From NCBI GenBank assembly GCA_000155715.1, contig DS990599.1, positions 304,545 through 368,544 of the forward strand: 64,000 nucleotides of DNA, in the 5' to 3' direction. The notes below the pieces were generated by a model that did not search any database, had not been told where the DNA came from, and worked only from the letters and a program-made list of their open reading frames with translations. The stretch comes from a gamma proteobacterium HTCC5015 (GTDB lineage Bacteria; Pseudomonadota; Gammaproteobacteria; HTCC5015). The position numbers were made by a program, and so were the translations under genes. Shown here in pieces: positions 47,634 through 53,909 of this stretch; position 1 is the stretch's first letter, and each line of letters starts with the position of its first letter.

Positions 47634-48506
47634 TTGAGGTATACGGGCAGTTTGAGTCAATCGAATTCTATTCGCCGCATTGTTGATACTGTGCTGTGGC
47701 CATCCGATCAGGTGGGCCGCTATGTTGTGCAGCGCACGGTGTTTTTGTTCGAACTGTTGCGTTTAATTTATTTAGGGGTGCGCACCTCTTGGTTTGAGCA
47801 GGGCTACGCCTCGCGGGCCAGGTTGGCAGTGATTGGCGCTCAGGTTTACCACACCGGCTTTAAAGCGTTGGGAACGGCCACTCCCCTGGCCGTAGTAGCG
47901 GGTGCGCTGGTGATTTTTCAGGCCTCGAACCAGCTCTACATTGTGGGTGGGCGAGAGCACATCGGACAAATTGTCATCATGATTGTCGTGCGCGAATTGG
48001 CGCCGCTGGTGACAGCGTTCATTGTGATTGCGCGCTCTGGAACAGCCGTGGCCACGGAAGTGGCGAATATGCGGGCCAACCACGAAATCGAGTCGCTGGA
48101 GGCGCTGGGGATTCACCCTTATGCCTATGTGGTGTTTCCGCGCATTATGGCGGGCATGATTGCGACAATTTGTTTGGCTTTTTACTTTATGGTCGCGGCT
48201 ATGTACGGCGGGTACTTTGTTACAGTGCCTTGGTCGAATTTGAATGTCAGTACCTATTTTTACGCGCTGGATGAGGCCATCCAGATTAGGGACTACGTGC
48301 TGTTTATTACTAAGACGCTGGTCAGTGGCGCATTGATTTTCTCAATCTCCTGTTACTACGGTCTGCAGGTTAAGCAGGGCCACGACGAGGTGCCTATTGC
48401 CACCACGCGTGCAGTGATTCACGCCCTGTCGTACATCATCTTTTTTAACTTGGCCGCCAGTGTGGTGTTCTATGTCTACGAATACTTGGGGCGCTTATGG
48501 TGGTGA
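47634..48506 (+). CDS. MlaE/YrbE-family ABC permease
   Basis: About 284-290 residues: an MlaE-type permease with six hydrophobic helices (ALGTATPLAVVAGALVIFQA, IVIMIVVRELAPLVTAFIVIA, the conserved E in VRELAP, and SGTAVATEVANMRANHEIESLEALGIHPYAYVVFPR, the family hallmark after helix 3). It should form the membrane part of an MCE lipid transporter with the next two genes. The start is unclear: TTG 47634 or TTG 47652, both with weak ribosome binding sites. It ends inside the ATPase gene start, overlapping by 10 bp. Confidence 0.88.
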   Translation: MRYTGSLSQSNSIRRIVDTVLWPSDQVGRYVVQRTVFLFELLRLIYLGVRTSWFEQGYASRARLAVIGAQVYHTGFKALGTATPLAVVAGALVIFQASNQLYIVGGREHIGQIVIMIVVRELAPLVTAFIVIARSGTAVATEVANMRANHEIESLEALGIHPYAYVVFPRIMAGMIATICLAFYFMVAAMYGGYFVTVPWSNLNVSTYFYALDEAIQIRDYVLFITKTLVSGALIFSISCYYGLQVKQGHDEVPIATTRAVIHALSYIIFFNLAASVVFYVYEYLGRLWW

Positions 48507-49216
48507 AATCGATACTGCGCTGCGCCTTTGAGGATTTGTCGGTGTACACCCCACGCGGGTTGCCCTTGTTGCAATCGGTGAATCTTGAACTGCCGATGGG
48601 TGAAGTCGTCGAGGTGACAGGAGAGCACGGTGCGGGGAAGTCGGTGGTTTTAAAATTACTGGCGGGGCTAGTTCGTCCTGTGTCGGGCGCAGTGGTGTAC
48701 AACAATGAGAATGTCTCGGCGCTGAACTTTGAGAGTTTTTTGCCCTACCGGCGAAATATCGGCTATGGCTATGGCGATCGTGGATTGTTGAGTGCTTATA
48801 GTCTGGAAGAAAACTTTCTCTTGCCCATGCGCTATCACCCACTACTCGATGACGACACCTCCGTGCAGCGAGTGAGTGAGTTGCTAGATGGGTTTGGTCT
48901 TAGTGCGGTGAAACACTTGAGGCCAGGGCAGATGTCGGAGAGTTTTAAGCGTTTGGCGATTGTGGCGCGAGCTATGCTATTCCGCCCGCAGTTGCTGTTG
49001 TTGGACAATCCAACGACGGGGCTGCCGGATGAAGATCGCGAGCGCATTATTCAATTAATTCAAAGAGAGCGCGAAATGCATCGTTTGCGACATGTTTTTC
49101 TCGTCTCCAAAGACATGCCTTTGATCGATGCACTCGTGACAAAGCGCATACACATTGAGCACCAGCAGCTAGTCGCTGTGCCCTCTGATGGTCGGGAGCC
49201 TGAATATGCAAGTTGA
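48497..49216 (+). CDS. ABC ATPase-like subunit of an MCE transporter, degenerate
   Basis: The 239-residue protein looks like an MlaF-type ATPase: Walker A is intact (GEHGAGKS). Other key residues are lost: the Q-loop glutamine is replaced (IGYGYGDRGLL), the LSGGQ signature reads MSESFKR, Walker B is LLLLDNP with asparagine in place of the catalytic glutamate, and the H-loop is LVSKD with lysine for histidine. ATP may bind but hydrolysis should be poor or absent. It is flanked by the permease (10-bp overlap) and the MCE gene (11-bp overlap). Confidence 0.85.
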   Translation: MVVKSILRCAFEDLSVYTPRGLPLLQSVNLELPMGEVVEVTGEHGAGKSVVLKLLAGLVRPVSGAVVYNNENVSALNFESFLPYRRNIGYGYGDRGLLSAYSLEENFLLPMRYHPLLDDDTSVQRVSELLDGFGLSAVKHLRPGQMSESFKRLAIVARAMLFRPQLLLLDNPTTGLPDEDRERIIQLIQREREMHRLRHVFLVSKDMPLIDALVTKRIHIEHQQLVAVPSDGREPEYAS

Positions 49217-50201
49217 AGTGAGCCGCTATGAGCGAGTGGCGGGGTTGTTTGTGGTGATCGCTTTGGTTGCGGTGACGCTGGTCAGTATCATGCTGGTGGT
49301 TCGCACGGGGTACTTTTCCGAGAAAACGCCTTACAGCGTGGTGGTGAAGTCTGCCACAGGCTTGCACGTGGGCACTCGCGTGCAGATGTCGGGGCTGAAT
49401 GTAGGTTGGGTAGACGATGTCGATTTGATAGCGCCGGGGCAGGTACTGGTGGAGTTCTCCATTTTGGAAGAGTATGCCCGTCGCGTTGTGGAGGGGACAA
49501 AGATCCAAATGGTGCGCCCCTACGCTGTTGGCGAAAAGCTATTGGAAATACAGGCGGCGGATCCCGCCAATCCACCGCTACCATCGGGTAGCAGCTTGCC
49601 GCTACTGGAAAGTTTTGATCTCGTCGATCTGATGAGTGGGCGCACGCTGGGCCCGTTTGTCGCCAGTATCGAAGCGCTGGTGGGTGATTTGAACAACACC
49701 ATGCTGGTGCTGCAGGAAGCGGGGACGTTTGAGCGCGTGAATGCCTTACTCGATCAGTCCACGCCCGTGATGGAAAACGTGAATAATATGTCGCGAGAGA
49801 TGGCGGCAATGGCGGGGACGTTCAATGAGCAGCAGCGCTTGGCCAAGCTGCTTCGGGAAATGCAGGCGTCGGCGCAGGAAATGAATCAGCTGTTGCCTGT
49901 GATGCGGCAAAATATGCCGGCGATCATGGAGCCTATGCCCGAGCTTTTGAATAACCTGAATGCGGTGAGTCAAGAGCTTCAACAGTTGACGCCTGTTCTG
50001 GCCGAGGTGGGGCCCGAGTTGCCGCGCACCAGTCGTCGAGCGATCGAGGCCATTGATGAGGCGGTGATTTTGATGAAGGCTCTACAGAAATCTTTTCTGT
50101 TAGAGGGCAAGGTGGAAGATGTACGCGAAGAGGAGCGGCAGCGCCGCCAACGGCGACGCGCCGAACAGCTGCCCGCTATTGAGGTGCAGCCGAACCCTTA
50201 G
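49206..50201 (+). CDS. MlaD-type MCE-domain lipid-binding protein
   Basis: About 331 residues: a cytoplasmic start, one membrane helix (VAGLFVVIALVAVTLVSIMLV), an MCE domain (about 40-115: YSVVVKSATGLHVGTRVQMSGLNVGWVDDV, YAVGEKLLEI), then a long helical region rich in Gln/Met/Leu (about 160-290, coiled-coil-like) and an Arg-rich tail. It should be the periplasmic lipid-binding ring that bridges the envelope. The start at 49206 is chosen because its helix is preceded by a short basic stretch; a start at 49188 adds six residues. Confidence 0.88.
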   Translation: MQVEVSRYERVAGLFVVIALVAVTLVSIMLVVRTGYFSEKTPYSVVVKSATGLHVGTRVQMSGLNVGWVDDVDLIAPGQVLVEFSILEEYARRVVEGTKIQMVRPYAVGEKLLEIQAADPANPPLPSGSSLPLLESFDLVDLMSGRTLGPFVASIEALVGDLNNTMLVLQEAGTFERVNALLDQSTPVMENVNNMSREMAAMAGTFNEQQRLAKLLREMQASAQEMNQLLPVMRQNMPAIMEPMPELLNNLNAVSQELQQLTPVLAEVGPELPRTSRRAIEAIDEAVILMKALQKSFLLEGKVEDVREEERQRRQRRRAEQLPAIEVQPNP

Positions 50202-50739
50202 CCGATTCGGCACTTTGGCTGATCTGTTGTTGCAGCTTTTGCGATTTGACTTGCATGGCTTGCAATAACTGAGGCAGCTTTGGGTGCTCTTCTTTCATCG
50301 TATTGATGAGCTTTTGTTGAAAACTCTGTTTTGCCGCTAACAGCTCTTGGTCTTTGGCGATGGCCATTCGGGCGCTTTTAAAGCTGCGGGCAAGCTCACC
50401 CATTTCTTGCTTAGTTGCCTGCTTGTCCTCTTCGGAGGTCGCGGGATCTTGCAATTTTGATTTGAGTGTTTTGATGCGCGCTTTGGCATCACTGTCGAAG
50501 CCGGCTTCGGCCAGTTTCTCTGCGGTTAATGCCTGCAGAGATTTTTGGTCGGCTTCAAGGGTTTCGTGTTTTTCAATCGTGCTGCGCTGCAAGGCGATAA
50601 ACTGGCGCTGCATTTGAAGCAATTCACCTTTGAGTGCCTGCATGCTGCTGTTGTCATTGGCGGCGAACGCCGATGTGACAAGCGTTGATGCGGCAAAGAG
50701 CAAATAGAGTAAAGCGGTGCGGAGCGAGCCGTTCGACAT
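50176..50739 (-). CDS. exported coiled-coil protein of unknown function
   Basis: The 187-residue product has a signal peptide (FAASTLVTSAFA-AN), then almost continuous charged helix with heptad-like leucines (QALKGELLQMQRQFIALQRSTIEKHETLEADQ, QKLINTMKEEHPKLPQLLQAM). No known family was recognised. It has a strong ribosome binding site (TTGGAGGCACT-ATG). The 3' end overlaps the MCE gene tail by 26 bp in convergent orientation. Confidence 0.65.
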   Translation of the reverse strand: MSNGSLRTALLYLLFAASTLVTSAFAANDNSSMQALKGELLQMQRQFIALQRSTIEKHETLEADQKSLQALTAEKLAEAGFDSDAKARIKTLKSKLQDPATSEEDKQATKQEMGELARSFKSARMAIAKDQELLAAKQSFQQKLINTMKEEHPKLPQLLQAMQVKSQKLQQQISQSAESAKGSAAPQ

Positions 50740-51825: not shown

Positions 51826-51908
51826 GATCGCTCCATTCCTCTAACTGAGAGTTGCGGTTGCTGGTTGTCAGACTATTATGCGTTGCAGTGAATGAAAAGG
51901 GAAAGAGT

Positions 51909-53909
51909 ATGAAAGCCGTTAAATTTTTGTTTAAAGCGCTTGTCGCCGTGCTTGTGCTCGTCGTGCTGGCGGTTGTGGGTCTAATGATTTTTGTCGACCC
52001 CAATGACTTTAAACCACAGATCGAGCAGGCGGTCGTTGAAAACACGGGGCGCGAGCTGACCATTGATGGCGACATCAGCTGGGCCTTCTGGCCTCGCTTT
52101 GGACTCAATATCGGCCATACGGAATTGTCCAATGCCGATGGCTACACTGCGCGCGTCTTTGCCGAAATCGACGAAGTCGATGTCGGTATTCAGGTGCTGC
52201 CGTTACTAAAAGGAGCGGTTGAAGCCGATGTCATTTATTTGGACGGCTTAGTGGCCAACCTCGAGGTGAAGTCGAGTGGCAAGACGAACTGGGACGACTT
52301 TGTTGAAGCCGATGGTAGGCCCGCCTCAGTCAAAGAGGGCCCGCGGGCGGCCACTGTGAACCAAGGCGATCAGGCGACGGGACTGGCCTCTCTGCCCCCC
52401 ATTCGCCTTGGCGGTATCCACGTTCGCGATGCTCAAGTGAACTACTCCGATCTGAGTGGCGGTATGGCGGCCATGCTGGAGGACTTCAACTTTAAAACGG
52501 GCCCTATCGTGTTGTGGGAGCCCATTTCATTTGAAGGCGATTTTACCATCGAGAACAAGTACCCCGAATTATTGGCCGAATTTGATTACTCGGGTGTTCT
52601 GACGGCCAAAGTTCTGGATGATAAATTTGCTTTGAACGATTTCAAACTCGGTTTAAAAGCGCAGGGTGAACCTGTGCCCAACGGTTCCGTGTCACTGAGT
52701 TTGGCCGCGGATGTGTCTGCGGATACCGCGGCGGAAACGGCGGAGTTGGCCAAGCTGCAAATCAAGCTGGATGAAACCACCATTGACGGTAAGGCGAGCG
52801 TCAAGGGCTTTAGTGAGCCAGCCATCGACTTTGATGTCGCTGTGGACAAACTCAATGTGGATCACTATTTGCCCGAGCCCGAAGAGGCTCCCGAACCCAC
52901 GGCTTGGGAGGAAGAGGCGCCCGAGCCTGTCGATACCGATCCAAAAATTGAGCTGCCGCTGGTGATGCTGCGAGGCTTGGATATGGATGGCAAGCTGACA
53001 GTGGGCGAGCTGCAGGTCATGGGCTTGAAAACCTCAGATATTGAAGCGGTACTCAGTGCTCACCAAGGCATTATTCATCTTAAACCGATGAAGGTGGCAC
53101 TCTACGATGGCCGCTTCAATGGCTCTGTGCGTCTCGACGCGACGGGACGCATACCGAGCTATGCGGTTAAATCGGAGATTCAGGGCGTGCAGGTTCAGCC
53201 GTTGCTGACCGACTTCGCCCAGTTCGACACCGTGGCGGGCAGTGGCAATATTCAGCTCGATATCACCACGCGGGGCGAGCGTGTCAGCGAACTCAAACGC
53301 GGCTTGAACGGCAAGTTATCGCTGGCCTTTGCCGACGGCAGTATTCAAGGGGACATCCGCGGAAAAATCGACAAGTGGGCCGAGCTGATTGGTCAAAAAG
53401 ATGAGCTCTACGGTGAGGGCGGCGAGACGACGACCTTTAAAACGCTCGATGCCAGTGCCACGGTTGTCGATGGCAAGTTAGTCACTAACGATCTCAACAT
53501 GGAGTCTGGCAATATGACGATTGCGGGCGATGGCTCTTTTGATATTCCCACAGAGTATTTGGATTTTGTCTACACGCTGAGTGTCGATGAATACAGTTGC
53601 CCTATCGGCATAGAGGGGCAGCTGATGGAGATCGACTACGCCAAAGCGGCGAAAAATGCTGTGCCCGACTGCGTTAAAGGCATGCTCGATGCGCGGCTCG
53701 ATGCCGAGAAGGAAAAACTCAAGCGCGAGCTAGAGGCGAAAAAGGCTGAGGCCGAGGCGCGCCTTGAAGCGGAAAAGGCTAAAGCAAAAGCAAAGCTTGA
53801 GGCCGAAAAGGCCAAGGCTAAAGCGGAATTAGAGCGCAAGAAAGCCGAGGAAAAAAAGAAACTTGAAGATAAAGCCAAGGAAGAACTGAATAAATTGCTC
53901 GACTTTTAA
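51909..53909 (+). CDS. AsmA-family protein
   Basis: The 666-residue protein has an N-terminal helix (LVAVLVLVVLAVVGLMIFV), the AsmA opening (PNDFKPQIEQAVVENTGRELTIDGDISWAFWPRFGLNIG) and an AsmA/DUF3971-like repetitive beta groove. It belongs to the family of bridge-like lipid-transfer proteins. Its last 70 residues form one uninterrupted charged helix of Ala/Lys/Glu repeats, longer than usual. The start at 51909 has AAAGGGAAAGAGT upstream; the frame from 51852 is not needed. mutY follows after 9 bp. Confidence 0.85.
   Translation: MKAVKFLFKALVAVLVLVVLAVVGLMIFVDPNDFKPQIEQAVVENTGRELTIDGDISWAFWPRFGLNIGHTELSNADGYTARVFAEIDEVDVGIQVLPLLKGAVEADVIYLDGLVANLEVKSSGKTNWDDFVEADGRPASVKEGPRAATVNQGDQATGLASLPPIRLGGIHVRDAQVNYSDLSGGMAAMLEDFNFKTGPIVLWEPISFEGDFTIENKYPELLAEFDYSGVLTAKVLDDKFALNDFKLGLKAQGEPVPNGSVSLSLAADVSADTAAETAELAKLQIKLDETTIDGKASVKGFSEPAIDFDVAVDKLNVDHYLPEPEEAPEPTAWEEEAPEPVDTDPKIELPLVMLRGLDMDGKLTVGELQVMGLKTSDIEAVLSAHQGIIHLKPMKVALYDGRFNGSVRLDATGRIPSYAVKSEIQGVQVQPLLTDFAQFDTVAGSGNIQLDITTRGERVSELKRGLNGKLSLAFADGSIQGDIRGKIDKWAELIGQKDELYGEGGETTTFKTLDASATVVDGKLVTNDLNMESGNMTIAGDGSFDIPTEYLDFVYTLSVDEYSCPIGIEGQLMEIDYAKAAKNAVPDCVKGMLDARLDAEKEKLKRELEAKKAEAEARLEAEKAKAKAKLEAEKAKAKAELERKKAEEKKKLEDKAKEELNKLLDF

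Follow-up and report, generated by a model that had tools for sequence, protein, structure and literature searches.

An MCE transport operon with a degenerate ABC ATPase in gammaproteobacterium HTCC5015 and its possible role in a Mla-like pathway without ATP hydrolysis

Introduction

The direction and the energy source of lipid transport by MCE and Mla systems have long been debated. In the MlaFEDB-MlaC-MlaA system of E. coli, P. aeruginosa and A. baumannii, an MlaE permease, an ABC-fold ATPase and an MCE protein are co-encoded. In E. coli, the K47R change in MlaF abolished both ATPase activity and function (PMC5016091), and the K47A and E170Q variants fail to complement, E170 being the Walker B Glu that is missing in the ATPase described here (PMC7367683). 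Transfer of lipid from MlaD to MlaC is reported to be spontaneous, according to a passage of PMC7790496 that cites the work.

MCE transport without an ABC ATPase has been proposed for the PqiABC and LetAB systems, which use the PqiA/LetA membrane proteins together with long proteins containing multiple MCE domains, and the PqiB and LetB bridges are ATPase-free (PMC12436622). In the Mpc system of Brucella (a Mla-Pqi hybrid) and the transenvelope Mla system of Veillonella, MlaE and MlaF are combined with a long MlaD-like protein, for which a bridge across the envelope has been proposed, and Veillonella has neither MlaA nor MlaC. According to PMC12436622, MpcF is a homolog of MlaF and the ABC transporter of Mpc is well conserved, and in this it is unlike the ATPase presented herein.

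In ABC transporters with one degenerate site, such as those of the TAP or CFTR type, catalytic residues are lost from a nucleotide-binding domain, and the heterodimer keeps one consensus composite site. The operon that we describe resembles these transporters in the loss of catalytic residues, but a homodimer of its ATPase would have no consensus composite site.

Results

The operon and its products

The window is a stretch of 64,000 nucleotides from contig DS990599.1 of gammaproteobacterium HTCC5015 (assembly GCA_000155715.1, positions 304,545 to 368,544 of the forward strand). It contains a three-gene operon in the order MlaE-like permease, ATPase and MCE protein (E-F-D). The genes, and the motif positions of the ATPase as assigned by alignment to canonical ATPases, are as follows.

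47634 to 48506, plus strand: MlaE-family permease, 290 amino acids from a TTG start (PF02405, E=7e-57)
48497 to 49216, plus strand: degenerate ABC ATPase (pseudo-MlaF), 239 amino acids (PF00005, E=1.3e-22)
48620 to 48643, plus strand: Walker A, GEHGAGKS, intact
48773 to 48775, plus strand: Q-loop position, Gly93 in place of Gln
48812 to 48838, plus strand: NFLLPMRYH motif of the helical subdomain (N, second L, P and H do not vary among the compared family rows; Tyr takes the place of the Glu of canonical MlaF)
48932 to 48946, plus strand: signature position, MSESF in place of LSGGM/LSGGQ
49004 to 49009, plus strand: end of Walker B, Asp170-Asn171 in place of Asp-Glu
49109 to 49111, plus strand: H-loop position, Lys205 in place of His
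49206 to 50201, plus strand: MCE (MlaD-domain) protein, 331 amino acids (PF02470, E=5.5e-11, residues 41-117)

The ATPase frame runs unbroken from the ATG at 48497 to the TGA at 49214-49216. As an earlier note on this DNA had stated, the genes overlap, and they do so at both junctions: the permease TGA (48504-48506) lies over the start of the ATPase gene, and the ATPase TGA lies over the start of the MCE gene at 49206.

The permease belongs to the MlaE family by its match to the PF02405 profile (193 bits, cut-off 22.5), while its score against TIGR00056 (150 bits) falls under the cut-off of 212; an alternative TTG 18 bases downstream may be its true start. The ATPase scores 81 bits against PF00005 (cut-off 25) but only 71.8 bits against the MlaF equivalog model NF008809, for which the cut-off is 441, and it stops soon after the ABC domain, without the C-terminal extension of the MlaF type. 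The MCE protein has an N-terminal transmembrane helix (residues 8-38), a single MCE domain by profile search and a long tail. The tail may be rich in helices, as a low-confidence model (mean pLDDT 44) gives no more than a hint of them. The earlier note had said that the permease and MCE genes look normal. They are not wholly so: the closest permeases that we found are only ~30% identical to that of the window, and the 331-residue MCE protein with its long tail compares with a 154-residue MlaD in a genome of the same family (G001). Compared with MlaFEDB, the window operon has no mlaB, a different gene order and an MCE protein twice as long, lies away from the mla locus, and encodes an ATPase that has lost the C-terminal extension, the signature, the Walker B Glu, the Q-loop Gln and the H-loop His.

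Convergent with the MCE gene and adjoining a DUF2333 gene is a minus-strand gene (50176-50739) for a secreted-looking, helix-rich protein of 187 residues that has no Pfam family. Further along on the plus strand (51852-53909), upstream of a mutY-like gene, lies a gene that by eye encodes an AsmA-like protein; AsmA-like proteins are likewise tied to lipid traffic.

Catalytic motifs and fold of the ATPase

The controls for the motif assignments were 77 canonical MCE ATPases encoded beside MlaE permeases, together with an alignment of FtsE and MlaF. Among the 77, SGG, the Walker B Glu (DE) and the H-loop His are present without exception and the Q-loop Gln is present in 75, so that the motif pattern of the window ATPase is far outside the normal variation. 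All of these alignments agree with the four catalytic changes that the earlier note had read from the letters (Q-loop, signature, Walker B Glu and H-loop His), and also with its observation that Walker A is perfect. Chance or assembly error is an unlikely cause, since four separate motifs are hit and 14 related operons, described below, lack two of them. We strongly infer from the sequence that the window ATPase has lost hydrolysis, although the intact Walker A means that ATP binding, or slow hydrolysis of an atypical kind, is possible. Because a single chain has lost the signature as well as the Walker B and H-loop residues, no undamaged composite site would form, whether the chain pairs with itself or with an intact ATPase.

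The predicted structure of the window ATPase, with a three-row alignment as input, has an ABC fold (pLDDT 79), and in Foldseek comparisons with known structures it gave a TM-score of 0.85 to FtsE and ~0.8-0.87 to MlaF chains.

Gene content of the genome

The genome is 2.63 Mb in 30 contigs and 98.9% complete, and the absence of genes was judged by profile searches. The only MlaE and the only MCE protein in the assembly are those of the window operon. The earlier note had proposed looking for a second MlaF, and none was found in these searches: the genome has ~20 other ABC ATPase domains, none of which resembles MlaF.

The mla locus lies outside the window (L138; G000:C30:242000-258000). It keeps mlaA and mlaC, and mlaF, mlaE and mlaD are missing. 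Specifically, yrbG and mlaA are on one strand and mlaC is on the other, followed by murA, and the spacing between mlaA and mlaC is ~190-235 bases, with the junction within one contig and no remnants of mlaFED detected there by tblastn. By comparison, G001 and three further genomes have mlaF, mlaE and mlaD at this place, with mlaA on one side and the remaining genes of the locus on the other. Given the 30 contigs, a second mlaFED could lie in an assembly gap. With mlaA and mlaC kept and mlaFED missing, the window complex is probably the sole inner-membrane partner for MlaC and MlaA. Between mlaC and murA there is an intact ATPase and permease pair of the ABC-2 type, of which no counterpart was detected in three other mla loci.

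A family of operons with degenerate ATPases

Searches of genome and viral collections with the window ATPase as query gave either no match or ordinary ABC proteins alone, and relatives were therefore sought via the permease. These searches revealed nothing closely related to the window operon, and a viral scan with the permease alignment gave no match. An ordinary MlaE is present in two genomes of the same family (G001 and G002), accompanied in G001 by a canonical ATPase. Class and order are used here as in the grouping of the searched collection. The best class-level permease matches, at ~30% identity, included five that have a degenerate ATPase downstream. An alignment of these five permeases and that of the window then separated nine of 369 genomes (423-288 bits) from the rest (at most 177 bits); three genomes that were new to this alignment also carry degenerate ATPases, and six more came from wider searches. 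Operons of this kind are thereby known from 8 of the 20 genomes of the order to which G127 belongs, and a single genome of another class also has one. In all, the order of MlaE-like permease, degenerate ATPase and long MCE protein recurs in 14 other genomes, giving 15 operons with that of the window, and the family is found mainly in the bacterial class of the window's organism, plus the one genome of another class. We found no earlier report of degenerate MCE ATPases in the open-access literature.

SGG and the Q-loop Gln are absent from all 15 operons, each of which has the MlaE-like and MCE genes, and the other motifs are lost patchily. Walker A is complete in four members (the window, G043, G086 and G387), the Walker B Glu and the H-loop His persist in a minority, and several members have MSE at the signature position. 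Thus the description of the ATPase as one that keeps only Walker A is accurate for the window member but not for the family, whose other members retain other subsets. The earlier note had named canonical motifs in close relatives as evidence against its reading, and none of the family members shows a canonical signature.

Fourteen of the ATPases could be aligned in full and have unbroken frames, mostly within overlapping genes; the fifteenth (G337, L142) was read in pieces, as its gene appears to be frameshifted by either sequencing error or real decay. Across the family most catalytic columns belong to the less conserved part of the protein, with ranks of ~58-212 of 239 in conservation except for one Walker A Gly at 24, while the residues invariant in the 11 family rows compared are N106, L109, P110, H114, P143 and R158. 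The N...LPxxYH motif follows the Q-loop within the helical subdomain, and from this position it is predicted to face the permease. Among five species of one genus of relatives, dN/dS of the ATPase was ~0.16-0.53, below 1 and above the values for the permease and the MCE protein, and the ATPase is thus under purifying selection in these relatives.

The genomes of the other 14 members each contain at least one further, canonical MlaE. In several of them (L142, L143, L144, L146, L147 and L148) a fourth gene downstream of the MCE gene encodes a lipoprotein of ~300 residues; that of L148 is shorter, and at least one of these lipoproteins has a TPR-like sequence. No such TPR-type lipoprotein is encoded beside the window operon, and a search of the genome gave only a weak match (20.5 bits). 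In G219 (L144) the degenerate operon lies a few genes from a canonical mla locus, after murA-hisG-hisD.

Placement of the window operon

In the permease tree, the window and the eight other members then known fall on one side of a branch with support of 100/97, and the ATPase tree gives the same split with the motif columns removed (SH-aLRT 92). The window branches are long (2.42 for the permease and 4.24 for the ATPase), and the tree software warned of long-branch effects. Two residue changes outside the catalytic motifs are shared with the family. Near the C-terminus of the permease all members have a Pro (EVP/ELP; EVP in the window), while the 76 readable canonical rows have G, S or A at this column and no Pro. 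In the helical subdomain of the ATPase, Tyr is found in 13 of 14 family rows at the position where 70 of 77 canonical rows have Glu. We also considered whether the members share a deletion of one residue close to the end of the permease, and discarded this trait, as the alignment shows a substitution to Pro instead. A common origin of the window operon and the family is therefore likely, although not proven, as the long branches mean that the placement could be an artefact despite the two shared residues.

Discussion

We propose, as a reading that we regard as somewhat better than even, that the window operon encodes an MCE complex that is independent of ATP hydrolysis, in which the pseudo-ATPase is a scaffold, and which is probably the sole inner-membrane partner left for MlaA and MlaC. 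The pseudo-ATPase would keep the ABC fold and a surface expected to bind the permease, and would thereby scaffold it. The permease would take phospholipid out of the inner membrane and load it into the MCE ring and the long tail, and the lipid would then move down its gradient without ATP hydrolysis, as has been suggested for PqiB and LetB, whose bridges have no ATPase. The long tail would fit an envelope bridge, as far as the poor model of the MCE protein allows. The reported spontaneous MlaD-to-MlaC transfer, together with the ATPase-free bridges of PqiB and LetB, makes such a reading plausible and suggests flow from the inner to the outer membrane. The motif loss, the existence of the family, the purifying selection in relatives and the gene content can be read from the sequences, and from them we infer the loss of hydrolysis, the assembly of the complex, the passive flow and the partnership with MlaC. 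As E. coli needs the ATPase activity of MlaF, any passive Mla pathway would have to differ from that of E. coli in how it works. The suggestion in the earlier note that the system may run without ATP hydrolysis gains support from the loss of the signature and Q-loop Gln throughout the family, the lack of a second MlaF among the ABC ATPases of the genome, and the loss of function in the K47R, K47A and E170Q variants of E. coli MlaF. The window operon resembles PqiABC and LetAB in its long MCE protein, but differs in its MlaE-type permease, in having just one MCE domain and in its pseudo-ATPase, and unlike Veillonella the organism keeps both MlaA and MlaC.

The pseudo-ATPase might alternatively be a regulatory plug, in which a nucleotide (ATP or some other) bound at Walker A would by itself be enough to open or close the permease and so gate a passive flow of lipid. 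The intact Walker A of the window, G043, G086 and G387, Asp170 of the window ATPase and the modeled ABC fold are all consistent with this. Yet an ATP-sandwiched dimer should be weak without the signature, and as most members have lost Walker A such gating is not the general mechanism of the family. The ATP-sensing plug suggested in the earlier note is thus conceivable for the few members with Walker A but does not explain the family, and we consider it unlikely. That a different ATPase powers the permease, replacing the pseudo-ATPase or pairing with it, was also raised there, and the ~20 other ABC ATPase domains would offer candidates, such as the intact ABC-2-type ATPase near mlaC, whose pair is undetected in three other mla loci. 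However, the ABC-2 ATPase has its own permease, none of the candidates resembles MlaF, a mixed dimer would still have both composite sites damaged, and purifying selection in relatives suggests that the pseudo-ATPase stays a docked subunit. We therefore regard a substitute ATPase as quite improbable.

Decay is a further consideration, either of the operon as such or of the window operon alone. The patchy loss of motifs, an ATPase that evolves faster than its neighbors and the frame break in G337 would agree with an ATPase that is turning into a pseudogene within a non-functional transporter. On the other hand, the frame is unbroken in 14 of 15 operons, dN/dS is below 1 in the one genus of relatives, specific columns are invariant, and the defect is old enough to be common to many families and two classes; ongoing decay thus appears very improbable. 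The window operon could instead stand outside the family, as an MCE system that decayed separately and was grouped with the others by long-branch attraction. Its long branches, the ~30% permease identity, the failure to find the TPR lipoprotein in its genome, and an MCE protein without the HYIHR-type N-terminus of other members are compatible with a separate decay. The two shared residue changes, which are absent or nearly so in canonical proteins, argue against it, as do the same gene order, the similar length of the MCE protein and the MSE at the signature of several members, and we judge a separate decay to be rather unlikely.

We tentatively suggest, with slightly less than even confidence, that a widespread and overlooked family of MCE transporters retained the ABC architecture but abandoned ATP hydrolysis, and that in at least one bacterium it took the place of MlaFED and became the sole partner of MlaC and MlaA in the inner membrane, resulting in an ATP-independent and probably inner-to-outer Mla pathway. 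The relatives provide a case of an ABC ATPase held under selection for something besides hydrolysis. If a natural Mla-like pathway has no known motor other than one without its catalytic residues, this would indicate that useful work by an MlaE/MCE complex is possible in the absence of ATP hydrolysis, and it would open the question of direction and energy source to direct tests.
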